In this document: positions 843-24,900 of the stretch, piece by piece | Layout: the number at the start of each line of letters is the position of its first letter | Position numbering within the stretch: the stretch's first letter is position 1 | Made by a program: the position numbers and the translations under genes | The notes under the pieces: model-generated | Told to the model about the DNA's origin: nothing | The model's database searches: none | The model's input: the letters and a program-made list of their open reading frames with translations, nothing else | Origin: a virus | IMG/VR virus record: IMGVR_UViG_3300036406_001285 | Location: 1-30,408 of that record | Length of the DNA stretch: 30,408 nucleotides | Strand: one strand, 5' to 3'

Positions 843-3800
843 TTAAGAAACCCCAATTCCGGGGGAGCTAGACCCTGCGCCAACAGACCCAGCAAACACC
901 TTATTCGCTGAACCAACGCTTCCCAATCCTTTAAACAAGGAAGCTTCTGAATTTATACTTTCAATTCTTAATTTTAGATATTTAGAATCAACTGGGTCTA
1001 TTGGGTTTACATAATCTCCTGTGGGAGGAACTTTTGTAGAGAAATCGACTCTTAAGTTCCTTCCATTCTTGGAAGGTTTTACCGTAGTAATCAAGAACCT
1101 CTTTCCATTATATCCAGTAGGGTAAAGGACAGAAGTCTTAAATTGTAAATCTATATCAGCAAAATCAGCATCATCCGTTGAATATATTTCATCGTATCTG
1201 ACGGTGAAACTGCTTTCACCAACGTAAGCATTTCCAGTTAAAATGATGTCTGCTATTCTGGCGAAGTTATTTGGATTTTGTATATTTAAGAAGGGTTGAT
1301 CAGTCGTCTCGTAAACTGCACCATAGTTGGCTAATCTCAAGTCTAATTTTTCACCAACTACAAAACCATTATCCAACGGGAAAGTCGTTGAAACAGTATA
1401 ATAGCCATAATATTTAGAACCATCTCCACTTTGAGTTGCGAAATTATCTCCAGAGAAAACAAGATTAGCTGGAGGATTTCTTAATATGAAACCTGATGAA
1501 GGATTTGGAACGATAGCATTATTTCCTTGCCAGAAATCTTGGGAATTACCAATTGGATTAACAAGTATATTCACTCCTGTAACTTGCCCTACATAAGGAG
1601 GCATGAACGAAACGATAGCATCTATAGTAGGAACTCCTGCTCCGCCATCATTTAAACCAATGCTAACAGGAGAGAATGTATAACCAGCGCCTCCACTTAC
1701 GATATTATAACCAGTAATGATGCCTCCGGGCTGATTGTAAAAATCTATTTTTGCTCGTTTTTTATTGAATTGAAATGTCGTTGCAAAATCTTCTATTATT
1801 TGTCCATTGACTTTAGTAAAGAAGTTGACTCCTGTTAGGTATCTTACTCCTTCTCCATTAAAAGATATAACAGACCCATCCCAACCACTTACTTGAGTGC
1901 TTCCATCTAATCTATAAGTTAGATTATTATTTAAATAAGCATCATTAACAGATATAAAAGGAATATAATTAAAGTTTCCAGTCACTGGATACTCTTCTCC
2001 CAAGTAAGTTTGCAGATAGAACATTCCAGAAATTGGCCTTACGTCTTCAACGTCTTTACCGTGCATACCCTTTCCTGCCATTGATGGAGGATAGAATTTT
2101 AATTCACCATAGTCTTTATATATCACGCTACTGCTCAACTCCCTAGCGTCAGTCACTACTGAGATCCCAGATTTAAAATTTGCAGCTAAATAAGGGAAGT
2201 TTGGAGTTATTGTTCCAGAAGCGCCTCTTGCAAGAGTTGTTACGCCTTCAAATTTAATTCCTGTCACATAATTAAGATTAGCTCCAGTTAATGTAATAAG
2301 AGACCTATATGTTCCAGTTGTAATATTTAAAGTAGATGTTGAAATAGAAGGAGGTCTAATCGTTATTGTCTTATAGAGATTATCAGCATCAAAGCTGTTT
2401 CTTTGGAAGAAAATTTGTCCACTTCCAATATAGCCATCCAATAAGATAGAATTAAATACACTTGCAGTAGTATTCCCTATTCCAATAGCATCAGAACCGC
2501 TCAGAAGAAGTTCTAAATCAGGAATTTGCACAGAAGGGAAAGATGTAATATTTAAATTCCCAGATAACACGGTATAACCAGTGTAAGGCTGAGACATTCC
2601 AGACAGTGTTGAAATATCAATAGCTTGCATTCCTTGCGAAATTAAATACTGACCTGTTTTGTCTGTTAAGTTATTGAACCCGCTAATGTAAAGATCTCTT
2701 GTTTGAAAGAGGTGAGCATTTATTCCTGTAATAATTATTCCATCTTGCGTCCTATAGGTATTAGCGTCTGAACCAGAGATAGTTGTACTTGGATAAAATA
2801 GAGGAGAAAAGCCTTTTATTTCAGCAGAAGTGCCAGAATTAAAAAATCTAAAACTTCCTTGTTTTACGTCTCTTGGAACTGAAAGCAAAGCTCCTGTTGC
2901 AACGGGGGGCACAACGTGTGGATATTTTATTATTTCATTATTGAATCCAACTCCATAGAAATCAAGACCACTCAAATTAGTACCTGATAAACTTATAAAA
3001 TCTCCAAAATAAGCAGAAGCAGGAATAATTCTTGAAATTTTAGGATTAATAAAAGTAAAAGAATCTACTGTAGTTACTCTACTGCTTCCATTTAAAACAA
3101 TAGGGCCATCTGTAATATCGTAAACTTGAGGAATATAAAAACTTAAACCACTAATGTCTTTTCTTCTGAAAGCGACAATCTCTTTAAACCCACCTCCTTG
3201 GCTACCTAATTCTACAGAGGTAACTGTATTTAAAAATTTACCAGAAAAAGTAATTAGAGTATTCACTGCTCCGGTAGTTGGAGAAAAACCATCAACGATA
3301 AGAGTGCCTGTTTTTATAGAAAGCCCACTTGGGTATGTATAACTGTAGTAATCTGAATTAATAATTAAACTTTCTCCGCTCTGGGCTAAATCAGGAACTG
3401 TAAATGTAAACGCTTGATCAAATTCAGACCCACTTTTAAATATATTATAATTATTAACTCCATAACCGCCTATACTTATAGAATTTACATAATAAAGATC
3501 ACTTCCATATCCAGTAGCTGGCTGACCTTGCTCTAATAAAGATGGATATATTCCCGTAATGACAGGCGTCTTTAAAAATGTAAAGATCTTATCAAAACCC
3601 CCAGTAGTCGTTGAGTTTAAGTTGTTTAATACAGGGTTGCTTTTCCTAATTAAAGACAAATTTGGAGTGGTTACGCTTAAATATCCAAAACTCCTAACAT
3701 TGTCATCAAATAAACCTGCATTAGCATGTACTAAAATTTCAGTATTAATATTATTTTTTGCTCTTCTTATTGGAGCGAAATTTGAATACTGATAAGGGTC

Positions 3801-6368
3801 TTCTCTAACAACTCTAATTTCATCTATATACCCACTCCAATATTTGGCAGAAGTATTTGCAAAATCTCTCCCGATATAAATATCGAATACTGAATTACTT
3901 ATTGAGGGACTCGTCGAGCCTATGCCAACATTTAAGTTAAAATCTAAATTAGAAGTTGCAAAATTTAAAGAAGATTCGCTTCCACTTAAATTTATAGGCG
4001 CACCATTTAATAATATTTTCCCATTAATTGCATTCTGATTTAGATAATTTTTTGAAATAGACAAATGATTCCAATCCAACGTATTTATTTGACCAGAAAA
4101 AACTGGCTTATACCCATTCCAATCTATTCCTGAAATAACTATTTGATCAGAAGTGACAAACACATTTAGCCCATTTTCACTCCCTATTAAATATTTTTTA
4201 TCAGAAGCAGAGAAATTTACTAGTGGTTTAAAATCTAATTCAACTGCAAAACTATTTTTATAACCTAAAGGAAAATTTGAAGATTGGCCGGTTATTGAAA
4301 ATTTGACATAAGGGCCGGGACTACCAGAGAATAAAAAGCTTCTGTCGTCAAATTTAGAAGTATCATTTTTTATCAGTACAGAATTAGAAACTTCTAATGA
4401 TTTTTGATTTCTGAATGTCGATTGATAAGAATAACTATTTGCATTTTCATTTGCATCGACTACCGAATTAACGTCCCCAGTATCTTGAAATAAAAATTGA
4501 GAATCTGGATAAATATTATGCCCAAGGACTTCAATATTTCCACCAACATAATGCTCAAAAGTTGATAGATTTTTAATTACAGGTGAGCCTTTTATAATTT
4601 CAAAATTTTTGAATATAAAATTCCTATTCCCTGTATTCTGGAGAGTGATATCGTAACATCCAGCGTCTGCGTTTGTGCCAGTAAAAGTTAAACTAGTGTT
4701 ACTATTATTTTTTACGAAAGCAGAAATAGGAAAACTCTTGTTATGAATTCCGTAATTGTAGTCTTCTACATAACCAGAAATGTCTTGTATCTTTGATAAT
4801 TTATTTCTGTCTCCTCTGTAATCATAATCAGAATAATTGCCTTGAAGCAGCAGAACAGTATTTGATGTATCAAACATCCCAGAACCAGTTATTAACTGAT
4901 TAGCATTACTATATAATCCGGCTCCTTTAATAATTCTTAGATCTTCAAGGTATCCAGAAAATGGATTGACTCCAGCAGAGTAATTACTTACATTATTAGT
5001 CCCAACAAAAAATCCACTTCCAGCAGTTATTGTATATGGAACCCCTGCTGAAACAGTAGTGCTGAATCCATTATTCAATCCGCTAGTAGCCACAAACGTA
5101 CTTCCATTTGAAGAGTTCTTAGAGATTACTACTTTTGTCCATTGATTTGCTGGAATATTAGAAGTAGGAATATTAGCTATAGAACCCCCTGCGGCATAAA
5201 AACTCCAATTAGTACTTGTCGCCGCTTTAAAAAAAGAAAAACCATTTCCGTCCCACCCTTGGTCTTGGAACATATCAATTTTTGGCGTTGAAGTATAAGG
5301 TAATGGATTGACTAAAAATTCAATAGTAAACGGACCTGTTCCAAAATTAAAATCTCCTCCAGAAGGAGAAGGTATCTGCAAGTAAGAACTTCCGCTGAAT
5401 AATAAAGACCTTCCAAATATACCAGCTTGAGAACTCCTAACTCCGCTATTTAAAATCGTCTTAGGCTCTCTGTAGTTTAATCCACTTAAAATAATGCCTG
5501 TGACATTACCGAAATTTTTTCCTATAGCTATATTAGACTCACCAGAATTTAAATAATAATTTAAAGCATTAAATACTACAGGAGCTTTAAGGACCGTAAT
5601 TTGATTTTTAGAAGTAAAAGAGGTGTTGTCTTTAGAATTTATCGTTACGAATCCTGCATTAGCGTTTGGAGGGACTATTCCAGAAATCACATCTCCTGCC
5701 CCTGTAAAACGAGCGGTTACAAAACCAGTGATATTATTATCTACAGAAGTAGTGAAATTTACAGGAAAATAAGATTGGTCAACATAGGAGGTATTAAAAT
5801 TTTTACCAGAAATCTTTAATAAATCTCCCTCATAAGGAAGATTATCACTAAAACCACTAATAAAAATACTACCAAAAAAATTAAATGAACTAGAAACACG
5901 CACTATTCCAGTATTATTATATCCACTTATTGTAATTGGGCCTGTCGTGTATCCGCTTGGAATCTTAACTAATAAAACGCCACTATCTGGTTGATAAGAT
6001 ATATCAGTTCCAGTAAGATTATTAAAAGATACATACTGAACTCCACTTAAAGACTTTCCGCTAATAGCTACAAATTCTCCAACTTCTTGGGTTGAAGGGA
6101 TAACCGCATCTAATCTTGGAATTGGAAAAAAATCAACTCCACTAACATACATTGGAGCAGACAGCGTAGCTCCAGTAATAAAATAAAGGTTTACTTTTCC
6201 CAATAAAATATCTTCTGGGACATTAAATTCTATATACTCAGGAGTTGAATCATAATAGGAAAAATCAATGAAACCAGCGCCGGGAACCTGTAATCCGCTT
6301 ATTGCGTAAAGCCCTGCGCCAGTCACGCGCATCCTCTGATTGATTAAACCTGTATTGTAAGTTGGCAT
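843..6368 (-). CDS. Giant IPT/TIG-repeat and LamG-like tail-associated protein
   Basis: This 1841-aa protein starts at ATG 6368 with AAGGA well placed upstream and begins one base after the preceding gene. The signature 'P-x-I...G-x-x-(V/I)-x-I-S/T-G-x-N-F...V-x-x-V-x-F', typical of Ig-like IPT/TIG domains, recurs near residues 85-165, 168-260, 930-1010, 1019-1100, 1108-1190 and 1343-1420. Two LamG/concanavalin-like jelly rolls lie near 315-500 and 675-870. Each begins R-S-(L/F)-L-F-S-G-S and ends SGY-(L/I)-(E/D)-(D/E)-(L/I)-R. Around 1546-1600 is a GGAGY beta motif shared with the small genes at 20398 and 21099. There is no signal peptide or membrane segment. TIG and LamG modules in phage virions usually sit on tail decorations or fibres and bind cell-surface sugars. 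It is last in the minus-strand tail-tube block. A surface-displayed adhesive fibre is inferred. The exact virion position is unknown. Confidence 0.75.
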   Translation of the reverse strand: MPTYNTGLINQRMRVTGAGLYAISGLQVPGAGFIDFSYYDSTPEYIEFNVPEDILLGKVNLYFITGATLSAPMYVSGVDFFPIPRLDAVIPSTQEVGEFVAISGKSLSGVQYVSFNNLTGTDISYQPDSGVLLVKIPSGYTTGPITISGYNNTGIVRVSSSFNFFGSIFISGFSDNLPYEGDLLKISGKNFNTSYVDQSYFPVNFTTSVDNNITGFVTARFTGAGDVISGIVPPNANAGFVTINSKDNTSFTSKNQITVLKAPVVFNALNYYLNSGESNIAIGKNFGNVTGIILSGLNYREPKTILNSGVRSSQAGIFGRSLLFSGSSYLQIPSPSGGDFNFGTGPFTIEFLVNPLPYTSTPKIDMFQDQGWDGNGFSFFKAATSTNWSFYAAGGSIANIPTSNIPANQWTKVVISKNSSNGSTFVATSGLNNGFSTTVSAGVPYTITAGSGFFVGTNNVSNYSAGVNPFSGYLEDLRIIKGAGLYSNANQLITGSGMFDTSNTVLLLQGNYSDYDYRGDRNKLSKIQDISGYVEDYNYGIHNKSFPISAFVKNNSNTSLTFTGTNADAGCYDITLQNTGNRNFIFKNFEIIKGSPVIKNLSTFEHYVGGNIEVLGHNIYPDSQFLFQDTGDVNSVVDANENANSYSYQSTFRNQKSLEVSNSVLIKNDTSKFDDRSFLFSGSPGPYVKFSITGQSSNFPLGYKNSFAVELDFKPLVNFSASDKKYLIGSENGLNVFVTSDQIVISGIDWNGYKPVFSGQINTLDWNHLSISKNYLNQNAINGKILLNGAPINLSGSESSLNFATSNLDFNLNVGIGSTSPSISNSVFDIYIGRDFANTSAKYWSGYIDEIRVVREDPYQYSNFAPIRRAKNNINTEILVHANAGLFDDNVRSFGYLSVTTPNLSLIRKSNPVLNNLNSTTTGGFDKIFTFLKTPVITGIYPSLLEQGQPATGYGSDLYYVNSISIGGYGVNNYNIFKSGSEFDQAFTFTVPDLAQSGESLIINSDYYSYTYPSGLSIKTGTLIVDGFSPTTGAVNTLITFSGKFLNTVTSVELGSQGGGFKEIVAFRRKDISGLSFYIPQVYDITDGPIVLNGSSRVTTVDSFTFINPKISRIIPASAYFGDFISLSGTNLSGLDFYGVGFNNEIIKYPHVVPPVATGALLSVPRDVKQGSFRFFNSGTSAEIKGFSPLFYPSTTISGSDANTYRTQDGIIITGINAHLFQTRDLYISGFNNLTDKTGQYLISQGMQAIDISTLSGMSQPYTGYTVLSGNLNITSFPSVQIPDLELLLSGSDAIGIGNTTASVFNSILLDGYIGSGQIFFQRNSFDADNLYKTITIRPPSISTSTLNITTGTYRSLITLTGANLNYVTGIKFEGVTTLARGASGTITPNFPYLAANFKSGISVVTDARELSSSVIYKDYGELKFYPPSMAGKGMHGKDVEDVRPISGMFYLQTYLGEEYPVTGNFNYIPFISVNDAYLNNNLTYRLDGSTQVSGWDGSVISFNGEGVRYLTGVNFFTKVNGQIIEDFATTFQFNKKRAKIDFYNQPGGIITGYNIVSGGAGYTFSPVSIGLNDGGAGVPTIDAIVSFMPPYVGQVTGVNILVNPIGNSQDFWQGNNAIVPNPSSGFILRNPPANLVFSGDNFATQSGDGSKYYGYYTVSTTFPLDNGFVVGEKLDLRLANYGAVYETTDQPFLNIQNPNNFARIADIILTGNAYVGESSFTVRYDEIYSTDDADFADIDLQFKTSVLYPTGYNGKRFLITTVKPSKNGRNLRVDFSTKVPPTGDYVNPIDPVDSKYLKLRIESINSEASLFKGLGSVGSANKVFAGSVGAGSSSPGIGVS

Positions 6369-6369
6369 G

Positions 6370-7449
6370 TTATAATCCTTGGAACTCTAAAGATAATCTT
6401 ATATCGTCAACAAGTACACTTGTTTTAAAGTTAAAGATAGAAGAAGAACTCGTCTCTTCTGTATCTATCAGAATAGCAGCAGCGCCTTTTAAACTAATAG
6501 GAGCCACAGCAGTAATTAAAGAAGTAGAAACTGGGTTAAAAGAAGTAGCCTCAGTATTACCAAAAAATATTTTTTTAACATTAATAAAATTACTGCCATT
6601 GATAGTAACTGTCGCTCCGGGCAAAATGACTCTTGGAGTAAAATCGGTTATTACTGGTTTAAAATGAGAGAAATCTTGTCTTAAAGAAAACTCAGATCTG
6701 ATGTATCCTTGAGCCTCAACTGAAGATCTTTTTGAAGATACTATCCCTGCAAAAGATAACGTGTCTAATGGTTGAGACCCAGTTAGCAAAGATATATAAA
6801 AAGAGCAAGGAACGCCTGAATAAGGCAAAGAATAATTAAAATTATCTATTTCAAAGCTAAGGCTCTGAGATCTTTTTCCTAAATAAGCTCTTCCACTTTC
6901 ATCAAAAGCCGAAGATCCTTCTTTGTTGTATTTTTGAACCTCTCTCTGGTATTGATAATTAAAATTAGTAAAATTATAACCATTTGAATCAAAAGGCGCT
7001 CCATCTAAGTCGCCTGATAAATAAAAACTTGAGAAATTTAATGGAGTGAATTCTGGTCTATTAGCAGGAGAGGTTGCAGAGAAGGCTCCTTTTAGAGGCT
7101 CGAAAACTTTAACTTCTACATCAACTTTAGCCAAAGAATCAGGAGATCCTTTTATGGAATAGTTTGTAATGTAGCCATTTTCGAAATACAAGCCGCAAAA
7201 ATTTCCAGAAATTCCCTGTTCTGAACTAGCCCCTAATAAGTATTCTTTTACGAAGTCTTTACCTGTTAAATAATAAGAAATTGAAAAATTAGTATCTACT
7301 GTATCTTCGGCTACATAAGAATAAGAATTCTTTTTAAATTCTTCATTGTAGACAGGAGTATTAGAGGTATCAAGAGACATGTTTACATTAGAGGCGAGGA
7401 TATCAACGCCACTAAAGCTAAACGTACAATTTTTATAATTAAAAAACAT
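6370..7449 (-). CDS. Tail-tube-like protein with C-terminal IPT/TIG Ig-like domain
   Basis: This 359-aa protein starts at ATG 7449 with a strong AAGGAG seven bases upstream, directly after the previous stop. Residues 1-260 are beta-rich and contain ENGYITNYSIKG followed by VDVEVKVFEPL, then SQSLSFEIDNFN. The same order occurs in the gene at 8263-9081 (SGYLTSYTCG, then RANFEIY, then FNLNINANR). Residues 265-345 (KPVITDFTPRVILPGATVTI, then NGSNF) form an IPT/TIG domain. In lambda the major tail tube protein gpV also carries a C-terminal Ig-like domain on the outside of the tube, so a tube subunit with a surface Ig domain is the best reading. Alternatively it could be a minor tail or decoration protein. 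The next gene encodes the long TIG-repeat protein, so the two may meet on the tail surface. Confidence 0.5.
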   Translation of the reverse strand: MFFNYKNCTFSFSGVDILASNVNMSLDTSNTPVYNEEFKKNSYSYVAEDTVDTNFSISYYLTGKDFVKEYLLGASSEQGISGNFCGLYFENGYITNYSIKGSPDSLAKVDVEVKVFEPLKGAFSATSPANRPEFTPLNFSSFYLSGDLDGAPFDSNGYNFTNFNYQYQREVQKYNKEGSSAFDESGRAYLGKRSQSLSFEIDNFNYSLPYSGVPCSFYISLLTGSQPLDTLSFAGIVSSKRSSVEAQGYIRSEFSLRQDFSHFKPVITDFTPRVILPGATVTINGSNFINVKKIFFGNTEATSFNPVSTSLITAVAPISLKGAAAILIDTEETSSSSIFNFKTSVLVDDIRLSLEFQGL

Positions 7450-8253
7450 TTAGAAACTCCTTTTTAATGATATTTTATTTTTAGCAAAATCGTCAATATT
7501 AATCGACAGATTAGAAGAATCGATCTTGCTTCCTGAAGTATTAATAATCATTATTGATTGATCGCCGAAAGTAGTTATGTTTATCTTGGCGTTCTCTGCT
7601 GTCGATAAATCTGCATTAGAGAAATTTGAATTAAAATTCTCTATGGTAAAATCAAACGTTTCTTCTCCAGCGGATAGGTCAACTTGCCTTGGCCTTTGTT
7701 GACCCACTGAGTAGATTGGATTCCAATTGATAGAAATTCCATAGGCAAAGTCTAAAACATTATAGAGAGCGGCTGTTCCTGAGACTTTAGTATTCCACGA
7801 ATGAGCTATTCCTGATCCGCTAGCTAGGTTATTAATTGTAGGCTTATCATTAAGACTTCCAGAAATATTAGAAAAACTAGACAAAGAAACAGAAGCTTGT
7901 ACTTTTGAGTTAGGGTTTGCTGTTAATGAATATCTAGAAGGATAAAAAGAACCACTTACTCCTGCTAAAGTGACTTGAACAGGAATATTTGTTTCAGGAA
8001 AGCTATTAGTGAAAATACCTGTTTTTAGATAATCGAAACACTTGTATATAGGATCAGAGATATTTGGGAAATAAGTAAACTCGATATTAGTCTCATCTGC
8101 TTTAGTCTTAAACATCTGAGATGAGTTTTGTCTTCCGATTGCGTAAGTAGAATTTATACTCCTATTTACTGCAATAGAAGCGTTCTGAGCCAGAACTAAG
8201 CCTGACCCAAAACGCGAATTAAATACTACGTCACACTCATTAAAATATTTCAT
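7450..8253 (-). CDS. Tail-tube-like structural protein (second of three paralogues)
   Basis: This 267-aa beta-rich protein starts at ATG 8253, preceded by AAGGAAAAAGG on the minus strand. It has no membrane segment, signal peptide or catalytic motif. Similarity to its two neighbours lies mainly in layout: an early strand region, FYPSRYSLTANP followed by VQASVSLSSF, and a late region EETFDFTIENFNSNF matching the 'F-x-L-x-I-x-N' strand of the flanking proteins. Its stop abuts the start of the next gene (7450/7449), and nine bases separate it from the upstream one, so the block is probably co-transcribed. I infer a tail tube or tail completion role from position and fold-like pattern. It is the most divergent of the three and the assignment is tentative. 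Confidence 0.45.
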   Translation of the reverse strand: MKYFNECDVVFNSRFGSGLVLAQNASIAVNRSINSTYAIGRQNSSQMFKTKADETNIEFTYFPNISDPIYKCFDYLKTGIFTNSFPETNIPVQVTLAGVSGSFYPSRYSLTANPNSKVQASVSLSSFSNISGSLNDKPTINNLASGSGIAHSWNTKVSGTAALYNVLDFAYGISINWNPIYSVGQQRPRQVDLSAGEETFDFTIENFNSNFSNADLSTAENAKINITTFGDQSIMIINTSGSKIDSSNLSINIDDFAKNKISLKRSF

Positions 8254-8262
8254 CCTTTTTCC

Positions 8263-9081
8263 TTATTTCAGATAACCCTTGTACCTTACCGTTATTCCTA
8301 CAGGAGAATTTACACTAGCGGAGAAGTCTTCGGAAACGTCAATAAAATAACATAACGAACTTCCAAAATCAAAATTTACTGAATTTCCATTAAAGTCTTT
8401 AGTTTTAATGTAAAAATTACTAATGTTCTTTATGCTGTATGATAAATCTGAAAGTTTTTGCAGAGCGTAATTATCTTGAGCTATATTAAATTCACAACTC
8501 ACCTCAAGAGGATAGATTGTCCTTACAGAAAATGGAGTTGAAGAACCTAAATAATATGCAGCGTTTCTATTAGCATTTATATTAAGGTTAAAAGAATTAA
8601 CTCTATTTGTAATAAAGTCATTAACTCCTATGTCTATCGAATTTGAATTTACCAAAGATGTGGCGTTTGATTGATTAAAATTGCCTTGAGAAGCTATAGA
8701 TCCAGCATCATTATATATTTCAAAATTCGCCCTAACGGTTGGCACTTCTCCAATTTGGGCACCACAAGTATAAGAAGTCAAATAGCCGCTTTGAAATCCA
8801 AATAAGACATTAGAACTTGGATTGTTTTTCTTAGTAATAAATCCGTAGTTACCCGCTTCACCAGTACAAGCTAGAAAGTCATTGGAAGTAGTCAATAGAC
8901 TAGTTACAGACAAAGTAGCGCCCTTCGCTCCTTCTGGAGTGTAAAAGCTGCTATTCATACCAAGATACTTGGTATGTTGAACTGGCATTTGATAGGAAGC
9001 CTGAATATCCTGAACGCCATGAACTTGGCTTTGATTCAAGTAAAAATCCAAGTTCTGTTTGTTTAGTCGAGATAATGCCAT
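8263..9081 (-). CDS. Candidate major tail tube protein (first of three paralogues)
   Basis: This 272-aa protein starts at ATG 9081, first in the minus-strand block. There is no Shine-Dalgarno, and the GTGTAAATAAT element lies only eight bases upstream, so the transcript may be nearly leaderless. The sequence shows FGFQSGYLTSYTCG, then VPTVRANFEIYND, then VNSFNLNINANRNAAYYLGS, then TPFSVRTIYPLEVSCEFNI. The pattern 'GYLTSY..., F-x-L-x-I-x-x-N-R-x-x-Y-x-LGS-x-x-P, ...YPLEV-x-x-x-F' resembles siphophage tail tube proteins as I know them, and fits a gene facing the gpM-gpJ operon. No cysteine pairs or catalytic residues stand out. Tube identity is inferred from pattern and context. Confidence 0.55.
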   Translation of the reverse strand: MALSRLNKQNLDFYLNQSQVHGVQDIQASYQMPVQHTKYLGMNSSFYTPEGAKGATLSVTSLLTTSNDFLACTGEAGNYGFITKKNNPSSNVLFGFQSGYLTSYTCGAQIGEVPTVRANFEIYNDAGSIASQGNFNQSNATSLVNSNSIDIGVNDFITNRVNSFNLNINANRNAAYYLGSSTPFSVRTIYPLEVSCEFNIAQDNYALQKLSDLSYSIKNISNFYIKTKDFNGNSVNFDFGSSLCYFIDVSEDFSASVNSPVGITVRYKGYLK

Positions 9082-9697: not shown

Positions 9698-10825
9698 ATG
9701 GCTACTCAACAAGAAAAAAATGCATCTTTAAAAATAAATACAGAGTTTTTCTCTCTTGAGCCTTCTTCAATAATCTCTTTATTTGAAATAGATCTAAGTG
9801 AAATTGGTTTTACGACTACGGCGAGTTCTCAATTTATTGTTAATCTCAAAAACTTTCAAATAATTTTACCCGGAGGAGATACTACTCATACTTTTGATTA
9901 TAGAGTTATTCGATTACATAATAATTTAAAACTTGGAAGGAATATCATTTATTGGAAGAATAAAGCTTATTTACCCGCTCCATTAGGGACAGAGGGATTT
10001 GAAACAGCTTCAAGAGGAGTGTTTCCTAAACCGAAAGTTCAAATAAGCTTTTCTGATGAGATGCTTGACGTTTTTAGCCTTTTTAAAGGGGTTGTTAATT
10101 TTGGAGATTTAATTGGAGTAAAGTTCACTAGAATCAGAACCTTTGCTAAATTCCTTGACAGAAATAATTTTTACCAATCTGATGGAGTAAGTACCCTATC
10201 TCCTGACAAATTAATCATACCAGATGGATTTGATCCTGATCCAAATTGCGAATTTCCTAGAGATGTTTATTACTTTGATAGGAAGTCTTCAGAAAATAAA
10301 AATAGCATTCAGTTTGAGCTTTCAAGCGCAATAGACCTAGACAGAGTGAAGTTGCCTAAGAGAAGAGTCTTAAGTTATATTTGTCCTTGGCAATATAGAG
10401 GAGAAGGCTGTCTTTATGAGTACAGCGAAAATTTAAAAGAAGAAATTCATGGGACTACAACTCCAATACCAAACAAAAGTAATTCGTCAGGAGAAAATGC
10501 GCCGATCTGCGCCACTGAAGACGATCAAATAATTTCTGAAATGGCGATTTTTGGACAGACTACTATCGCAAACAATCCAAGCGCTTGGCAATTGTCAAAA
10601 AGTTATAAAAAAGGAGAAATAGTTTTTATTACGAAAAACAAGATTAATTTTTATTTTATAGCAAAAACTAATACACCTATGGATGTGCCTCCTCCAAACG
10701 GAGAATACTGGATAGCTGATCAATGCTCCAAGAGTATAAAAGGATGTAAAATTAGATTTGGAGAAAATCCTTTACCTTTTGGAGGATTTTATGGAGTATC
10801 TAATTACAATAGAGGAGTAGGATAA
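9698..10825 (+). CDS. L: Lambda gpL-like tail tip protein with four-cysteine (Fe-S) site and inserted sugar-binding-like module
   Basis: This 375-aa protein is longer than lambda gpL (about 232 aa). Residues 1-225 form the beta-rich domain that caps the tail tube. The C-terminal part has CPWQYRGEGC (C229, C238) and CSKSIKGC (C343, C350), followed by KIRFG...PFGGFYGV. This is the gpL pattern in which four cysteines hold an iron-sulphur cluster. Between the cysteine pairs is an insert (W297 to W338) with 'W-x5-Y-x2-GEIVF...FYFIAK...YW', a CBM5/12-like module resembling the one in the M homologue. The stop and next start overlap as TAATG, so translation is probably coupled to the first K gene. 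No Shine-Dalgarno precedes ATG 9698. Confidence 0.88.
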   Translation: MATQQEKNASLKINTEFFSLEPSSIISLFEIDLSEIGFTTTASSQFIVNLKNFQIILPGGDTTHTFDYRVIRLHNNLKLGRNIIYWKNKAYLPAPLGTEGFETASRGVFPKPKVQISFSDEMLDVFSLFKGVVNFGDLIGVKFTRIRTFAKFLDRNNFYQSDGVSTLSPDKLIIPDGFDPDPNCEFPRDVYYFDRKSSENKNSIQFELSSAIDLDRVKLPKRRVLSYICPWQYRGEGCLYEYSENLKEEIHGTTTPIPNKSNSSGENAPICATEDDQIISEMAIFGQTTIANNPSAWQLSKSYKKGEIVFITKNKINFYFIAKTNTPMDVPPPNGEYWIADQCSKSIKGCKIRFGENPLPFGGFYGVSNYNRGVG

Positions 10826-11583
10826 TGATTTGCGACGAAATAAAAGCAAAAATAAAAGCTCATTCATTAAAGGAAAACCCAGATGAATGTTGCGGTCTTC
10901 TGCTTCTAAATAAAAAGAATATACTAGAATCTTTTCCTTGTAAGAATATAGCTCAGGATAAGGAAAATGAATTTGTTGTATGTCACCTAGATTACTTAAA
11001 GGCGGCAATGAATGGCAAAATTGTTGGGATTTATCATTCTCACTGCATACAAGACAACTCTTTCTCAGAGCTAGACAAGCAGATAAGCCACAAGCTTAAC
11101 CTAAAAAACATAGTTTATATACTAAAAAGTGATTCTTTTGAAGAGTATTCTCCAGAAAATTACTATAATAAATACGTTGATAAAGATTTTGTAATTGGGG
11201 TATCTGACTGCTTATCAATAGTAGAAAACTATTACAATGAAGAATTCGGTATTAAGATTTTCCATTATGAAAGAACAGCAGATTGGGATAAGGATTATCC
11301 AGAGTTTGTAAAAAATAAATTAGCAGAGTTTTGCGACTCGCAAAATTTTGATAAATTCTTTGAAAAAGAAAATTTCGTTAAGATCGAAGGAATAGAAAAT
11401 GCCAGAAAACATGATATCATTGTATTCAAATACCTAGAAAATTACCCTTCACACTTTGGCATTTATCTTGGGCAAAACCACATTTTACACCAACCAAGAA
11501 ATAAAAAATCAATCATTGAAAAGCTCACAGACGCAGAGAAAAGAAGAATCTATTGCTTCATAAGGAGTAATCAAATATGCTAA
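10825..11583 (+). CDS. K: Lambda gpK-like tail tip peptidase 1 (JAMM plus NlpC/P60)
   Basis: This 252-aa protein has the two-domain layout of lambda gpK. The N-terminal JAMM/Mov34 metalloprotease-like domain has E21 in DECCGLL and the zinc motif H71-S-H73-x7-S81-x2-D84. The C-terminal NlpC/P60 cysteine peptidase domain has C129 (GVSDCL), H210 (HFGIYLG) and probably H222 as the third catalytic residue. In this family the NlpC part is thought to cut peptidoglycan during DNA entry and the JAMM part to act in tail assembly or processing. All key residues are present. AGGAG lies about ten bases upstream of the start. The gene overlaps L by one base and the second K gene by seven, and is followed by a paralogue of the same layout. 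Confidence 0.88.
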   Translation: MICDEIKAKIKAHSLKENPDECCGLLLLNKKNILESFPCKNIAQDKENEFVVCHLDYLKAAMNGKIVGIYHSHCIQDNSFSELDKQISHKLNLKNIVYILKSDSFEEYSPENYYNKYVDKDFVIGVSDCLSIVENYYNEEFGIKIFHYERTADWDKDYPEFVKNKLAEFCDSQNFDKFFEKENFVKIEGIENARKHDIIVFKYLENYPSHFGIYLGQNHILHQPRNKKSIIEKLTDAEKRRIYCFIRSNQIC

Positions 11584-12323
11584 CGGAAGAGATTAAAAGC
11601 AAAATTATTGAACACGCTAATACTTCTAATAATGAAGTATGTGGGCTTCTCGTACATTCAGAGTCTGGATTAGACATAGAAAAGACAGAAAATCTGATTA
11701 ATTCAGCTACTGAATTTATGATGAATTTTGACGGTCAGTCTAATGTTGCTGCCTATTATCATTCTCATATTAATTTTGATGCTATTTCAGAAGTAGATAT
11801 AATTGTATCTGAAAGATTGGGATTACCATGCATTGTCTACAATAAGCAAAGCGGATCTTTCTACACCTATAATCCAAATAGTTATAAAATTCAATACACA
11901 GGAAGACCTTTTCTTTTAGGCTTTGCAGATTGTTTATGGTTGGTTAGAGACTATTACGCGCACGATTTGAATCTCCATCTTTGTCCAGAGTTAGAAATTC
12001 TTAAAAATAATGTTTCTGAAGAAGAGTACAATAAAACAGCAAGCAAAAGACTTCTAGACGAAGAAGCCGCTTTAAAAGATAAAGACGACTATTTAAAGAG
12101 GTACTTTGAATACAATGGATTCAGGCAAGTTCCTAATTTTAGAAAGAACGATGTTTTAATAATGAGAACAAAAAGGTTCGATTTCCCAATTCATTGCGCC
12201 GTTTATCTTGGAGAAGACATGATTTTGCATCATCCCGGAAATAAACCTTCTCTTACCGAAAAGCTTTCTAACCAACACAAAAAATGGGTAATTTATATAA
12301 TGAGGCATAATCTTTATGACTAA
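11577..12323 (+). CDS. K: Lambda gpK-like tail tip peptidase 2 (JAMM plus NlpC/P60), tandem paralogue
   Basis: This 248-aa protein is a paralogue of the preceding one. Both start with a similar 'EEIK-x-KI-x-x-H' helix. JAMM residues are E20 (NEVCGLL), H62, H64, S71 and D74, but only six residues separate H64 from S71, one fewer than the usual seven and than its neighbour. NlpC/P60 residues are C119 (GFADCL), H206 (HCAVYLG) and H218, with the same 12-residue spacing as H210 to H222 in the first copy. A good AGGAG precedes the start. It overlaps the I gene by eight bases. Whether the shortened JAMM loop still binds zinc cannot be judged from sequence. It may have become specialised for cell-wall cleavage or for holding its partner. 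Confidence 0.85.
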   Translation: MLTEEIKSKIIEHANTSNNEVCGLLVHSESGLDIEKTENLINSATEFMMNFDGQSNVAAYYHSHINFDAISEVDIIVSERLGLPCIVYNKQSGSFYTYNPNSYKIQYTGRPFLLGFADCLWLVRDYYAHDLNLHLCPELEILKNNVSEEEYNKTASKRLLDEEAALKDKDDYLKRYFEYNGFRQVPNFRKNDVLIMRTKRFDFPIHCAVYLGEDMILHHPGNKPSLTEKLSNQHKKWVIYIMRHNLYD

Positions 12324-13056: not shown

Positions 13057-16000
13057 ATGAATAACTTTGAAGATTTTAAATACATAAAAGGCTTTGGCGG
13101 TGGAGGCGGTGGTTCGCAATCGCCACAACCAACTGCCGCTTATGAAGACGTTGAAGGATTTGTATATAACGGACAGCCTTATGGAGTGTACCAATTTGCA
13201 AAAGTAAAAGATCTTTTATCAGAAGGGCCAATCGGTGGACTTCTTGAAGGGCAGTATTTATATTCTGGTCAAGTTGGCGATTTAGGATTTAAAAAAGTTA
13301 TTTATAATGAATACTCTTCTGTAGTAGGAGAGAACAGTGAATCTAAATATTTAAGATCTATCCAGTGGAACCAAACTCCTCTTTTAGACAGCCAAGAAAA
13401 ATACAATTTTCAACAAATAAATGTCCAAGTAACTAATGGAACTCCAGAAGGCACTTCATTAGATCAAGGTTTCGATAGCGTATCTTATATTCGCTCCATA
13501 GGAGAAAGATTAAGAGGCCCAAATCAACTAGCTAGGACAACAGATGAAGTCCTTGATTACCAAAGGACTTACCGCATATTAAATAAAGAATGTAAAAAAA
13601 TAAGTTTAAATTTTAGAATATCTTCTCTTTATGTGACTTTGAAATACCAAGATTTAACGGAAGTAAGGGATGGGAAAATAAAGATAGAAGGAGTTGAATC
13701 AGCAACGGCAACTGATTTTAAATTAACCCGCACAGGAAGAGAAACCGAAGATGGAAATCTCGACGCTATAGTCGCTGGTGCTGGGTCTGTTATACGAAAT
13801 AAATTCAAAATAAGAATTAAAATCTCTCCAATTTACAATGAAGGATATAACGCTAATCTTCCAACACTTGATTTAACTTCGAATACTGCTACAATAATTA
13901 AAGACAATCAAAATTTAGTAATTGACGTAGACAACGTCCCTAAATTATTCGAAATAGAATCCGATGGAAAAGTAACTCAAGGCTATTCTAAGCAAATCAT
14001 TTTAAACACATCTAATGTTTTTTCTGGATTAAATGAAGACCAAAATTGGGCAGGTTGGGATATTACAGTATTAAAAATCACTCCAGAAGACACTTTTTCA
14101 GCAAGAGCATCTTTTATAAGTTTAGAAAGCATTACTGAAACATACTCTTCTTCGTTTAGATATACTAATTCTGCAATTGTTACTTCTAAATTTAACGCTG
14201 GATATTTTTCTAAAATACCAGAAAGATCATATGATGTTAACTTATTAAAAGTCAAAGTTCCTTTTAATTATAATCCAATAACAAAAACTTATGGCATAAC
14301 TACTCCACTTGCGCCGACCATTACAACAACAATTTCAAAAACAGACGGAGAAACAACAGAAGATTTCTTTTTAGGAGAAAATGGTAATTATGTAAATGCC
14401 GACAATGTCAATCCTCCAATTACAGATGGGTTAATTGCTCAATTTGATGCGAGCAATCCTTCCTTAACTACTTCGGCAGGAGAGGTAACTAGTTGGCCCA
14501 ATACCGTAGCTGGAACCATAAAATGTGTCTTAGGAAATGGAACTTACGCAGCCCCTGCTGGAACTACCGCTAGACCAAAATATGGATCAAGCCACTCAGA
14601 GCAAAGCCCCAATGGAAATTATGGAGTGACATTTGAGACTACTCAAAAAGTTAAATTCATTGGTAACGCAGATAGTACTGAGGCCATTAGTAAGGATGAT
14701 TTTACTGTTTTCATTGTATGTAAATGGCATTCTAGCGCTCTAAATACTGAAAGAAATTCTATTTTAGCTTCTTTTCCTGTTCAACACTATATTTTCGGGC
14801 AAACACAGAAAATTAATCGCTACTTCGCAGCGGGTAACACAAATCTTGACATGCCGCAAACGCAAAGTAACATACCTAAATTTTCTAGTCGCTCCAATTA
14901 TTGGGGCGACACAAATGATCCAACTACTTATATCATAGGGCTCACTCAAGATAAAACTTCTTTTTATACAGTATTTTGGCAGAATACTATTCGCAGTACC
15001 CAGAGGAATACTGTAAGTGTCCTACCATTATTGGGTCTAGCAATAAATCATAATGTCTCGCTTAATAGTAAATGCACAGTTTTTGAAGTTCTAGTTTATA
15101 ATCGAAAATTAGCTACATCAGAAAGCATTTCTGTTAGAAATTGGTTGAATAAAAAATGGAATGTTTTGGTTCAGAATATAACTTCTATTTCAAGCTCGGC
15201 TATCCCTCAAGCATTTAATCCTAATGTTTTTGATATACCTTTAAGTAGCTCCATATCAATACCATTAAAAACTCTTTGCGCTAATGGACAGGCAACAAAA
15301 GCTTTCAAATATGAAGGTGGAGATCAAAATATAAACTTCTTTAATAATCCATATTACCAAATGGATTTAATACCTACTAGGAACTTACAGGTTACTAGTG
15401 AAAAAGGTTATTTAAAAGATCAAGGGTTTTCTGGGTGTTATTGTGACTTTTTTATTAAATTAAAAGATATTTCTTATGCTGGAACTTATTCTTTAATTAA
15501 TAGAGAGGAGCAATTTAATCTTTCTATGGCTATAAATGGAGAGGTTGTAAGCTTAATACTTAAAATTATTTCTCCAAATGATGGCAAAATATATACCATA
15601 ACAAAACAACTAAACACAAGCAAGTACTCGACAACTAAATTAAAAAACACTTTTACAAGAATTACTTTATCCATCTTACCAAAAGTAGTAAACCCGAAAG
15701 TGACATTTAATGAAGTCGCGAGGGTCGTAGCAAATATAAATCTTAATGACAAAACTTGGGATAAAACTCCCCTTGTTGATACACAAAAACCACAATTAAG
15801 GGATCAAGCCGGTAAACTAGAAGCATCAGTCAAGGGGCTTCCCTCTCTTTTAATACAAGGAGTATCATTCAAGGAAGACTCCCTTTATAATAGTCAAATA
15901 GACAATCTTGCTGCTACTTGTTATAAATACTTTTATGGCACCACGAAAACTTTCCTAGCTACGGGTGGTGGTTGGTACATCGGGAAATCTTTAAGTAAAG

Positions 16001-20397: not shown

Positions 20398-21096
20398 ATG
20401 AAACATTATATTATATATTTTATTAACGGTAGTTATAAAATTATTCAGTCTTCAATTAATTTAGTAGAAGACACAGATCATCTCTATTTTTTAGGAATAG
20501 ATTATCACTTGGTTGATTATATCGTCCAATTAAATAAAAATATTACCGACAACGATTTAAAACATAGGAAAATCCTTCCAGACGGCAATTCAATTTGGAA
20601 CAAGCATGATTTGATTAATGAAAAAATTCAAAGAATGACAGAAGAGAGAAGTTCTTTATTGCAAAAACTTGATGTAGAATTTATGATTTCTCTTGAAATT
20701 GCTAACAATAAACAGACAGAGATTATTAAAAGAAATAAAAATTTCTTAAGACAACTCTCTTGCAGAACAGAAATGCATCATATTCATGACTGCGAGAAAA
20801 TTAATAAGTTTAACGCTTTCCATAATATAGTAGACATAGAAATCATTGACCCCGGTTACGGATGCTCAGAGTCTGTCCCTCATGTCACCATCTCTCGTCC
20901 TGAAGAGACTGACTATAACTATGGATTAGCAGCGGCTGCTAACGCTATTAGAGGATCAAAAGGAGAGCTACTTTCTTTATCTATGGCAAAATTAGGATGC
21001 GGCTACATATCTGAGCCTACAATTGAAATCAGTGGATATGAAGGAGAAAACGCAAAACATCCTGTGTTAAAAGCTGTTATTTGTAATATAATATAA
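20398..21096 (+). CDS. Unidentified tail protein with helical core, HxH/Cys cluster and GxGY motifs
   Basis: This 232-aa protein lies 15 bases after J with no Shine-Dalgarno. Residues 1-75 are mixed. Residues 75-120 are an amphipathic helix pair containing RSSLLQKLDVEF and KRNKNFLRQL. This recalls the 'R-x-x-LL-x-x-x-D ... R-x-x-LR' helices found in tail-fibre assembly and tail chaperone proteins, and a gene after J would suit that role. A compact cluster C122-x4-H127-H128-x-H130-x-C132 follows, a plausible metal site. Residues 144-215 hold two beta motifs (IDPGYGCSESVPHVTIS and LGCGYISEPTIEISG) related to the GxGY beta motifs seen in phage fibre-type proteins. Function unknown: a fibre, fibre hinge or assembly factor are the options. 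Confidence 0.4.
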   Translation: MKHYIIYFINGSYKIIQSSINLVEDTDHLYFLGIDYHLVDYIVQLNKNITDNDLKHRKILPDGNSIWNKHDLINEKIQRMTEERSSLLQKLDVEFMISLEIANNKQTEIIKRNKNFLRQLSCRTEMHHIHDCEKINKFNAFHNIVDIEIIDPGYGCSESVPHVTISRPEETDYNYGLAAAANAIRGSKGELLSLSMAKLGCGYISEPTIEISGYEGENAKHPVLKAVICNII

Positions 21097-21098
21097 AT

Positions 21099-21926
21099 AT
21101 GACAGACGTATTGTTTTCTTCCGGCGACGAATTTGCGTACTCTAATAATTTAGCAAATTGGTCTTCAATTAATTCAGGCCAAGAGATCGAAATAATTGGA
21201 AGCCCAGAGAAGTTCTCTACTGTTCGTGTTGATTTTATTAGCTACAATAAAGTATTTTCTGTTGTTTCTGAATCAAGAATTAAATTTGACTCTAATGCAA
21301 AAGATTTAATACTAGACGGAGATACAATTGATTGTTTTTTTAAGACTTATTATGTCGCTGTCATTAATGATGTTATTGAAAAAGGCAATGGATATCAAGT
21401 CAACGAAGTAGTTAGTGTATCTAAGGATTGTTATTTTGATAATTTTTTAGACAAGAAAGAAAAAGCATTATTTAAAATTACTTCTGTAAATGCTGAAGGC
21501 GGCATTTTAGAACTAGATCTAATTAGTAAAGGCAAATTTTGCCAAAACTTTAGCGAAGCGGAGATAGAAAGCAGTTCTGGGAAAGGAGCTAAGATCTCTT
21601 TTATCTTGGGTGAAAATAAAAACAAAGAGCTTAAATTCTTTTCTGTATTAGATGTTAAACACCAAGATTCATATATTACCGCAGATCTAAATGAAAAGAT
21701 TAAAAATCCTTTTCTCTGCGGCGAAATGCATATAAAAAGATATCGTATTACTTTAAATAAATCGCTAGGTAAAGAATATCTTTCTCACCCTTTTATTTTA
21801 AAAGTACAAAACACTCCTTTCTTAAACTTGCCGCTAGCCAAAGATAACAATATAGAGCAAATCTATAATCAGGCTATACTGACTATAGACTCTAAGATTA
21901 AAGAATTATCTACTGGAGTAAAGTAA
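21099..21926 (+). CDS. Unidentified tail-associated protein with GxGY beta motifs
   Basis: This 275-aa protein begins two bases after the previous stop, without a Shine-Dalgarno, and is the last gene of the plus-strand tip operon. It is beta-rich with no membrane segment or signal peptide. Residues about 88-160 contain 'VIEKGNGYQVNEVVSV' and 'GGILELDLISKGKF', spaced like the paired GxGY motifs of the preceding protein and of the C-terminus of the 1841-aa protein. A helical C-terminus (NNIEQIYNQAILTIDSKIKE) closes it. The last 21 bases overlap the end of the convergent tape measure gene. A structural or fibre-linked role is inferred only from context. Confidence 0.4.
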   Translation: MTDVLFSSGDEFAYSNNLANWSSINSGQEIEIIGSPEKFSTVRVDFISYNKVFSVVSESRIKFDSNAKDLILDGDTIDCFFKTYYVAVINDVIEKGNGYQVNEVVSVSKDCYFDNFLDKKEKALFKITSVNAEGGILELDLISKGKFCQNFSEAEIESSSGKGAKISFILGENKNKELKFFSVLDVKHQDSYITADLNEKIKNPFLCGEMHIKRYRITLNKSLGKEYLSHPFILKVQNTPFLNLPLAKDNNIEQIYNQAILTIDSKIKELSTGVK

Positions 21927-24900
21927 TCCTCCGGGTCTCTTTTGTTCGACTAATACTTCAACAACTTTGCTTCTAAGTAACTCAGCAAGTTTGCCATTGT
22001 TTTGCATGCTGTTCTGATCGTTTTTAGAATTGGATGCGCCTTTTTGAGTGGTGGAGTTAGCTTCAGAGGTAACTTCGCCGCCTTGAGACATGTTGATTGA
22101 AATATTGTTTACTACAGACATGCCAGACTCTTGAGCAGTTCCAGCAAGAGAAGCTCTTCCTGATTCTGATTGAGTTATTCCCGAATCCTTAGATAAGTTA
22201 TCATTTAAAGTATTCAACGCAGTTACTAATTCATCCATGCTAGAAGACTGGTCTGTATTGCTTTGACCGCTATAACTTGTGCCAACCATCCCGCCGCTAG
22301 CATATTTAGGAAGAGAACCAGAATTCAATTGACCCATGAAGTCTTTGCCGTACATATCGACGGCTTTTTTATTCATGACGTATTCGCCGCCCATTAACAA
22401 AGCGGGAATATTGTCTTGGCCTGTAGAGCCGCCGCCAGCAAATTTGGCAATATAACCTCCTCCTGCTCTAAGATTTTTTGCATATTGTTCATTTAATTGC
22501 GATTGACTTAAATTGCCTCCCGGTTCTAAACCTCTTCCCGCAGAAGTAGAAGCTCTACCCCTTAAACTCTCTGCTCCCATTGTAAGTCCAGCAGCGCCTA
22601 TTTGGACAGCAGCAGCAGTTAATCCTGAATAGAAAGTGCTATTTACTTGATTTTTATAGTTTTTAAGGCTCTGTTTCTTGTCTCTCTCATATTGCGCTCG
22701 GTCTTGTAAGTACTGATCAAGTTTTTCATAACGATCTTGTCTTAATTTATTTTGAGGGTTATTGTCGTCAGTTAGAGCCATTGCTGACAATCTAGAATCA
22801 ACAGCAAACTCTCCAGAAGTTGGGCGATCAGGATTATCGTACAAGAATTCATTTTGCAATGGGCCAACAGAGAATCCTCCAGTCGCGTATCTTGGAATAA
22901 TTCCACCATTTAGATTTCTTAAATAATCAGATCCATATTTATCAACAGAAGATTTCTTAATGACATACTCGCCGCCGCTCATCATCGCGGGCACATCGTC
23001 TTTCATCCCAGAGCCGCCAGTAACCATACCTCCAGAATTATAGCCTTTAATTGGTCCTCCATCTTTCCTGCCAGTTGTAGCAGCTTTACCAAAAGCAAAC
23101 AAAGCATCAACGCCCATCTCTAGAGACTTATCAAGCATTCTATTTAAGATGCCTTGGAACATGTCTCTAAATGCATCCTTAAGGGTTTTAGTGCCTTTAA
23201 TAGCTTCGCCAAATGCGCTGCCAATACCAGACTTAAAATCAGTTTGAAATGTATCAATTAGTTGACCAGTGTCTTTTGCGAAGTCTGCTCTATTGTAAGT
23301 GGTGTTCTTCTCTGTGATTCCTCCTACATCGACTTTCCCAAGTCTAGCATTGTCTTCTATTTGGGAATTCATTCTGGCGGCTTTTTCTTCTTTGAAGAAT
23401 GTGTCGCCGTAAGCTGAACCGTAAAGCCTCTTTGTTTCTTCTTTTGTTTTATTTAAACGCTCAGTTACTTTTGCTCTCTCATCTGCTATTTGCATTTCCA
23501 AGTACATTTGAGCGGCTAATTCTTTATTACCATCTCCATAAATTTTATTAATTTCTTCTATCTTTTTATTTTTTTCGATTTGAATACCCTCTTGAGCTTT
23601 AGCTAAATCTCGCTCTGCATCTATTAAAGATTGAGGTTTTGCTGGAATTGACGAAGAAGTTTTCCCAACTGAAGGATTGAATTCATAAAATTTAAAATCT
23701 GAAGAAGCGGCAGGAGTATTAATTTTATTAGGAAAATTAGAAGTTGGCGTTGATTGCGATTGATAAAGCTTTGTTAAAATAGAATTTAAATTCTCAAGTG
23801 GGACATTTAATTTTAAAGCCAGCTTTTCTCTATCTGTATATGCAATTGGATTATAAGGACCTGCATCACCCCCCATTGGCATGCCTGATGCACTAGGATT
23901 AGCACTTCCAAAAAGCATACCAGAATTAGCCATCTGAGATCTTATCTCTGTCAAAGCTTTTTCTCTTTCAGAAACTGAAGCTATTGGTAATAGATTTCTA
24001 ATTTCTTTATTTAATTCTGCTGTATTTTGAGTATCAACAAGTTGCTTTAATGCTTCGCTCAAAGATCTATTTAATTCAGTTATTTTTGATCCTACTTCAG
24101 CCTTAGAAATATCATAAAAAGCTTTAGTTATATCAGGAGCTTGTTTTGCTAGGATTTCTGTTTGAGTCTTCGCTAGCTCATTCGCATATTTACTTTCTTG
24201 AGCTAATAAATCGAAATAAGTTCCTATATTATCAAGCTTCAATTGAGAAGTCACTTGATCAATAGCAACGCTCATTGCGTTTTCATTGAAGTTATCAAAA
24301 GCTTTCTCCAACGCACCGCCTGATTGAATTCCGCTTCCTGTTTGCCCTATCAATGAAATATTAGTTAAAGCTCTTGCTCTTTCGTTTTCTTTTTTAAGCT
24401 GTTCTGCTCTTGCGGTTATTGAAGCATTTTGTAATGGAGCTAATTCTGCTCCGACTCCTCCGCCTCTAATCCCATACTGATTAGAAATCGTATCCAGCAA
24501 TTTAAACAATCCAGATCCTGTTTCTGTTGGATTTCCTACTCTAACATTTTGTCCCAAAGTAGAAGTCAATTCAGTTAGCTTATCAAATAAATCAGAAACC
24601 CCAACTTGACCAGTTGATCCCAAAGCTGCGGCACCGCCAGCAAGAGAAAGCTTTTCAGATAGAGCTACGCTTCTTCTTTGATAATCAGAGTTTACTTTTT
24701 GAATAGCTAAATCAAATTTTCCTTGTTCAGTAATTTTAGTTAACTCGTTTAAAACTCCTTCAAAAGTATTTTGTAATTCTCCTGCAATTAATTCGGCTTC
24801 TGGCTTCTTGAAAAGACCCGTTGCAGAGACTCCTTGAATTAATTTGTTTTTTACTACTTCTATATTGCCACCAGCGCTTAACTCTTTCAAAGAAGAAGCG

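Follow-up and report, generated by a model that had tools for sequence, protein, structure and literature searches.

A protein of 1841 amino acids, encoded on the minus strand of an uncultured virus, is probably a virion adhesin of the phage tail, with the neighbouring protein C as its mount, a chain of TIG-like domains as its stalk, and LamG domains as lectin heads, of which the first (LamG1) is exchanged by recombination. The window, that is, the whole stretch of DNA analysed, comprises 30,408 bases and is a virus record of IMG/VR. In the proposed arrangement, protein C, which ends in a TIG domain and is putatively a tail protein of ring or tube type, would hold the giant, which would extend outwards as a string of TIG-like beads. 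Two paralogous lectin-type LamG domains carried on this stalk would make reversible contact with glycans on the host surface, and LamG1 would be the specificity part, traded among related phages through homologous recombination.

Several elements of this picture are established at the level of sequence: the reading frame itself, both LamG domains, a set of five or six TIG-like ones, the adjacency to C, a fusion of C with a TIG chain in distant relatives, and a divergence island in LamG1. We infer C to be a ring protein of the tail and the giant to be present in virions, attached to C; the lambda-type tip genes adjoining the block count in favour of this reading. The LamG domains would bind glycans in the service of adsorption, a function suggested by the LamG fold together with lactococcal CBM-extended tail proteins and Ig-decorated tail tubes. 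A sequence-only reading had proposed a long glycan-binding surface fibre or a whisker along the tail; an adhesive structure of this kind is supported and sharpened by the C-TIG fusion in two distant contigs (L086 and L087), the conserved gene adjacency, and the LamG1 allele replacement. If correct, this would place elaborate tail-mounted adhesion in phages that have no cultured relative in the collection searched, and a string of unannotated reading frames would become recognisable as a module in which a TIG chain, sometimes with LamG, comes after C. LamG1 would then be the piece indicated for host-recognition testing.

The giant reading frame and its domains

The reading frame begins with ATG and has exactly the extent that had been assigned to it, and the plus-strand reading of the same interval is crowded with stops (Table 1). 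Its start lies 1 nt past the stop of the gene for the 359-aa protein C, and an AAGGA-like Shine-Dalgarno sequence sits just 5' of the ATG, within the 3' end of the C gene. The protein had been called far larger than usual tail decoration proteins; its 1841 residues are real, yet two longer proteins are encoded in the same window, J with 2441 aa and the tape measure protein with 2633 aa, and the reading frames of LamG-bearing cyanophage virion proteins, at 19,131 and 19,812 bases, are bigger than the giant's. Scanning the whole protein with hmmscan against Pfam, PHROGs and NCBIfam gave no match. This negative is weak evidence here, because a single-profile search of the record with Laminin_G_3 detected LamG that the whole-protein scan had missed. 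PDB sequence searches with both halves of the giant returned only E-values of 0.2 or worse, GTDB genome scans with the giant and with C produced pattern matches and no relative, and a tRNA scan of the window and eight loci found none.

Table 1. Annotated features of the window, numbered from its first base
Feature	Positions	Strand	Basis
1841-aa TIG/LamG giant, stop included	843..6368	-	ORF call; full-length homologues
TIG-like domain, aa 1345-1417	2118..2336	-	both TIG tests
TIG-like domain, aa 1108-1200	2769..3047	-	both TIG tests, over 28 columns
TIG-like domain, aa 1024-1110, weakest of six	3039..3299	-	20.8-20.9; second test 20.0 vs 20.5
TIG-like domain, aa 934-1022	3303..3569	-	probe profile; only TIG with a usable model
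LamG2, ~aa 652-888	3705..4415	-	partial below-cut-off PF13385, relative L005, profile comparison
LamG1, predicted ConA-like jelly roll, ~aa 302-514	4827..5465	-	PF13385 and fold matches
Apparent allele-replacement island in LamG1, aa ~381-510, window vs L002	4839..5228	-	DNA identity windows, mismatch counts
TIG-like domain 2, aa 167-244	5637..5870	-	20.2 and 20.7; own controls <=15.5
TIG-like domain 1, aa 84-164	5877..6119	-	score 27.2; second test 26.7, own controls <=17.7
Protein C, 359 aa, putative tube/ring-like N part and C-terminal TIG	6370..7449	-	Pfam TIG; L086/L087 fusion
Pfam-supported TIG of protein C	6436..6657	-	E 6.1e-9
Protein B, 267 aa, C relative	7450..8253	-	hhalign 1.3e-5 to C
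Protein A, 272 aa, partial C relative	8263..9081	-	hhalign; homologue LamG-fused in L101

The LamG domains are the clearer of the two domain types. Over aa 325-482, LamG1 matches PF13385 (Laminin_G_3) with E 2.3e-12 and 41.6 bits, exceeding the curated cut-off of 27.6. The match in LamG2 covers only aa 821-854 and stays under the cut-off (E 4.2e-4, 14.9 bits), while LamG2 of the relative L005 reaches E 4.9e-7 and 25.1 bits, passing the cut-off only jointly with its neighbours in frame. Profile comparison of LamG1 with LamG2 gave a score of 38.4, against 14.2 for the reversed sequence, at most 21.3 in 40 shuffles, and at most 17.5 for other windows of the giant. This score, above all controls, identifies LamG1 and LamG2 as paralogues by sequence comparison and bears out the earlier claim of two LamG-like domains of common origin. 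An AlphaFold model of aa 1-940 had a mean pLDDT of 46, with blocks of 70-86 in the LamG stretches. Foldseek ranked laminin LG4-5 and neurexin first (E 2e-11), with low TM-scores over a long alignment; VIA-align of about aa 302-514 gave Z-scores of 14-15 against jelly rolls of the ConA-like class, among them pentraxins and an LNS domain of neurexin. The predicted jelly-roll fold of LamG1 is thus firm.

The TIG-like domains are more divergent. Pfam TIG (PF01833) found none on the giant at E<=10 and did not reach its curated score, and the probe used was a 16-sequence profile of the Pfam-supported TIG of protein C. It marked six places, at aa 84-164, 167-244, 934-979, 1024-1080, 1108-1135 and 1345-1417, with scores of 20.2-27.7, all higher than the maxima reached by reversed windows (18.5) and by shuffled ones (16.0 and 17.9). 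Several of these alignments are partial, that at aa 1108-1135 spanning 28 columns. In a second test with twelve controls of its own for each place, 5/6 stood above their controls; the exception, aa 1018-1110, scored 20.0 against a control of 20.5. Additionally, aa 80-168 and aa 1106-1200 resemble each other in profile comparison (score 39.4). The earlier count of at least six IPT/TIG-like repeats is therefore about right: five are firm, and the sixth falls below its own control, with Pfam TIG silent throughout. Further TIG domains at aa 1188-1345 and 1466-1550 were rejected, their scores lying within controls.

Structure prediction by segment gave a mixed result. The AlphaFold model of aa 926-1841 (mean pLDDT 36) is usable only at about aa 930-1021, whose fold matches a domain of Bacova_02650 (SGBP type) at Z 10.8 and plexin at 9.8, within an overall range of Z 9-11 that includes plexin/Met. 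The expected folds were thus recovered for LamG1, as a jelly roll, and for aa 930-1021, as an Ig/TIG-like domain; the remainder is poorly modelled, and most domains of the giant lack a usable model because both models are poor (pLDDT 46 and 36). The idea that LamG is inserted inside TIG domains 3 and 4 was dropped, since the joined half-domains scored within controls against the TIG profile. It had partial support: lengths fit, aa 258-305 scored 15.3 (own controls <=12.4), and T3x reached 28.8 over 18 columns when compared with the TIG of aa 1340-1475 (controls <=16.8). Comparison with the middle of L086 was unconvincing (T3x 15.2 vs 16.4, T4x 16.6 vs 14.4, joined 15.7 vs 27.4).

Neighbouring tail genes and relatives

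The three genes upstream of the giant encode proteins A, B and C. The TIG of protein C scores above the curated Pfam cut-off (31 bits; E 1.3e-6 in the whole-protein scan). By hhalign, B is related to C along its length and A to C in part (7.6e-5); the A-B comparison (0.077) is not significant. Divergent tip genes of lambda type M, L, K, K, I and J adjoin this block, and the two successive K-like genes at window positions 10825-12323 are of the JAB and NlpC/P60 type, the JAB match of the second being below the cut-off. A 74.9-kb relative (G003) encodes proteins of 553 and 395 aa, mutually related (1.8e-47), ahead of two smaller genes and then the tape measure. Protein A resembles the 395-aa protein (1.7e-4), and the values for B (0.34) and C (0.019) are not above chance. 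The 553/395-aa pair is, by its position, the likelier major tail tube, and A, B and C would be additional ring- or tube-like proteins, as judged from sequence likeness. The earlier description of a tail-tube block thus holds to the extent that the three upstream genes appear tube- or ring-like by weak similarity, while the likelier major tail tube lies elsewhere by position.

None of the libraries scanned gave a name to A, B, C or the 553/395-aa pair, and A, B and C found no tail-tube match among Pfam, PHROG or PDB sequences. In the PDB sequence search, the TIG of C retrieved IPT/TIG-type matches (best E 0.0015), and A and B only matches of E 0.2 or worse. A BFVD fold search returned mostly long low-probability alignments; those of high probability include phage proteins of the IPT/TIG type along with a single major tail protein. 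Among cultured phages, C matched only through its TIG, the sole match of A was weak (E 3e-3), and searches with B, the relative's presumed MCP, the 395-aa protein, the L086 fused region and the C of L101 found nothing.

Other genes in the window and its relatives deserve mention. The tape measure protein at 21906-29807 (2633 aa) and a 3478-aa reading frame in a relative (L063:43-10479) would both predict a very long tail, since tail length follows a rule of about 1.5 Å per tape measure residue. GxGY-rich stretches that look alike by eye occur at window positions ~1554-1721, in the C-terminal part of the giant, at 20398-21096, in a 232-aa protein, and at L062:12545-14206, in the 553-aa tube-like protein. 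In a relative, the region L062:2468-9710 contains a run of reading frames, of which those of 735 and 684 aa have Laminin_G_3 (three in the latter) and one of 700 aa has LamG below the cut-off; a protein of 275 aa there carries a pair of I-set Ig domains.

Close relatives preserve the giant and its position. Full-length homologues measure 1829-1847 aa at 54-100% identity, thirteen of them at 58-100% and those of L053 and L054 at 55%. Searching with C, and hence without bias towards the giant, yielded 28 close contigs (>=74% identity to C); two stop inside C, and all 26 contigs with sequence past it have the start of the giant 1 nt beyond the stop of C. An earlier set of 25 contigs, biased in that most were retrieved by the giant itself, shows the adjacency in 23/25; the exceptions are L022, which has 157 bp left after C but a match to the giant, and L051, with a different TIG protein. 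These relatives are metagenome contigs, in which assembly errors are possible.

The C query also reached 18 divergent loci at 25-31% identity. The contigs of two of these, L093 and L100, break off within C, and three (L098, L099 and L103) are one by shared words, which leaves 14 distant contigs with downstream sequence; some are kin, as L086/L087, L094/L098-L099 and L066/L102 share sequence. In 2/14, C and a TIG chain form a single reading frame followed by LamG, and in the other 12 one or more TIG-like reading frames follow C, with best within-set E-values per contig of 2e-9 to 0.02, against 0.3 and 1 for reversed reading frames. The two fused frames, 2778 aa in L086 and 2028 aa in L087, are open at the contig end and continuous, and L087 is 91% identical to L086. 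Residues 1-307 of L086 are a C homologue (31%, E 1.6e-39; hhalign 1.2e-44), and LamG follows the TIG chain in both (E 3.6e-16 and 3.2e-17). The two best matches to the giant, tested on L086, are collinear (giant 79-235 with L086 423-571, E 3.6e-7; giant 929-1219 with L086 826-1131, E 1.5e-11), alongside weaker off-register repeat matches. The spacing between these anchors is about 255 aa in L086 and 694 in the giant, a difference of roughly two LamG domains. The fusions indicate that the proposed mount and stalk can form one product.

Pfam TIG at E<=0.01 found the downstream or fused chain in nine of the 13 distant records searched, seven over the cut-off, and missed it in G015, G021, G024 and G025. 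LamG is fused to or follows C in 4/13 (G015, G016, G017 and G025), a count to be read with several other contigs ending soon past C; on these numbers, the TIG chain looks like the constant part and LamG like an optional one. Moreover, a 172-kb contig (L101) encodes an A homologue (30%, E 3e-28) with a C-terminal LamG (E 3.8e-19). We consider it an evenly balanced proposition that a broad group of uncultured phages carries tail-side adhesins on dedicated tube-like rings of the A/B/C kind, with TIG chains and LamG plugged into C or A. With the same even weight, these plug-ins would take the form of fusions, of one giant, or of several consecutive reading frames, and the tail would bear a ring of long lectin arms that can be swapped and are distinct from the tip with its J protein.

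Divergence within LamG1 among close phages

Compared with its close relative L002, the window has a median DNA identity of 99% in 200-base windows, falling in LamG1 to 68% (200-base) and to 50-82% (60-base). Mismatches number 125 in the 639 bases of LamG1 and 75 in the 4884 bases of the rest of the giant. The island looks like a replacement by recombination, a reading drawn from the closeness of the L002 LamG1 to that of L014 (dS 0.10 vs 0.29 for the whole gene), and it implies that the putative head has been exchanged. Diversifying selection on LamG1 was considered and set aside: dN/dS is below 1 wherever computable, and recombination is the better account of the island.

LamG1 is the sharpest variable part and not the sole one, since islands occur elsewhere in the giant and in J. 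Within the giant, smaller islands lie near aa 1621-1631 and 1706-1776, and in L005 and L010 its C-terminal part diverges more. The LamG1 zone is also affected in other close pairs: L003/L004 have a short island at aa 361, and L007 differs from L008/L009 over aa 470-650, a stretch reaching beyond LamG1. A second divergence island in the window, at 14401-15999 (J, ~aa 449-981), shows 88-96% identity in 200-base windows against the median of 99%; it is partly LamG-like by eye, and Pfam Laminin_G_3 has no match there.

Alternative readings and known systems

One alternative makes the giant an ordinary side tail fibre that lies beside C by chance and docks at the tip complex as the side fibres of other siphophages do, with J doing the main receptor work. 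In its favour are the presence of J and of the other lambda-type genes for the tip in the same cluster, and a 3064-aa reading frame with fibre-like repeats (by eye) elsewhere in a relative's genome. We regard this as unlikely, since C and A are fused to the same kinds of domain in relatives and the C-giant adjacency is invariant across the close contigs. A further reading makes the giant a structural or protective tail coat, in which the TIG chain stiffens or shields, perhaps glycosylated by glycosyltransferases that the phage itself encodes, and LamG serves for packing. This is improbable in view of the sharp LamG1 difference between near-identical phages, unexpected for a passive coat, and of the fibre-like way in which L086 and L087 run on into LamG and collagen-like stretches (by eye). 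Counted in its favour are the constancy of the TIG chain beside a seemingly optional LamG, two genes close after the giant in relatives, one GT9-like (390 aa, E 4.1e-7) and the other of 635 aa, a GT2 gene directly ahead of C in L051, and the glycans of mycobacteriophage capsids and tail tubes cited in PMC12619734. It is very improbable, finally, that the giant stays out of the virion and is instead produced late, to be exposed on the infected cell or set free from it: the start of the giant, MPTYNTGLINQRMRV, does not resemble a signal peptide by eye, and a form fused to a tail-ring-like protein exists.

The glycosyltransferase-like genes, at L012:16216-19297 and L051:4394-5209, make virion glycosylation possible. 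In L012, the giant is followed by a 233-aa protein, the GT9-like gene, the 635-aa gene (a weak glycosyltransferase match below the cut-off), and DNA replication genes. Homologues of the 233-aa (43%), GT9-like (42%) and 635-aa (55%) genes also follow the TIG reading frame of L101.

The tail-mounted adhesin, our preferred reading, is best seen as an extension of known Ig- and CBM-decorated tail proteins. Among titles and abstract openings on LamG, TIG or Ig-like domains with tails, this arrangement did not appear. Bacteroides SGBP-B and the plexin/Met IPT arrays are also built of tandem Ig/TIG beads; these are cellular proteins, and the analogy is one of build only. Laminin G3 domains have been published for tail fibres and other virion parts of jumbo phages (PMC7824862). 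The giant LamG "virion structural proteins" of cyanophages Syn33 and P-RSM4 match the LamG1 region at 26% and 34% identity (E 5e-5 and 7e-5). They differ in belonging to phages that are T4-like per their record notes, in having reading frames of 19.1 and 19.8 kb, and in a match confined to the LamG region. In Arthrobacter phage RootBeer and its relatives, the annotated major tail protein (gp12) ends in a TIG with 34-40% identity to that of C; only the TIG is alike, and the next genes in RootBeer encode tail assembly chaperones and the tape measure.

Like the major tail proteins lambda gpV, T5 pb6, YSD1 and SPP1 gp17.1*, with their C-terminal Ig-like domain, the putative tail ring protein C would bear an outward Ig-like bead, and YSD1 and T5 have been proposed to bind carbohydrate weakly (PMC8718954). 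Unlike those proteins, which carry one Ig-like domain each as described there, C has one TIG and the next reading frame five or six more together with two LamG domains. The closest functional model is the extended tail-tube protein, together with p2 tail decoration, of the lactococcal 936 phages, whose tail-tube protein is lengthened with a CBM (TpeX) by programmed frameshift, and GFP-labelled TpeX bound host cells (PMC6669499). In that system, as described there, the tail-tube protein with TpeX measures about 470-530 aa and carries a BppA-like CBM, whereas here a separate 1841-aa reading frame carries TIG and LamG, and the fused form in L086 and L087 lies in one continuous reading frame.
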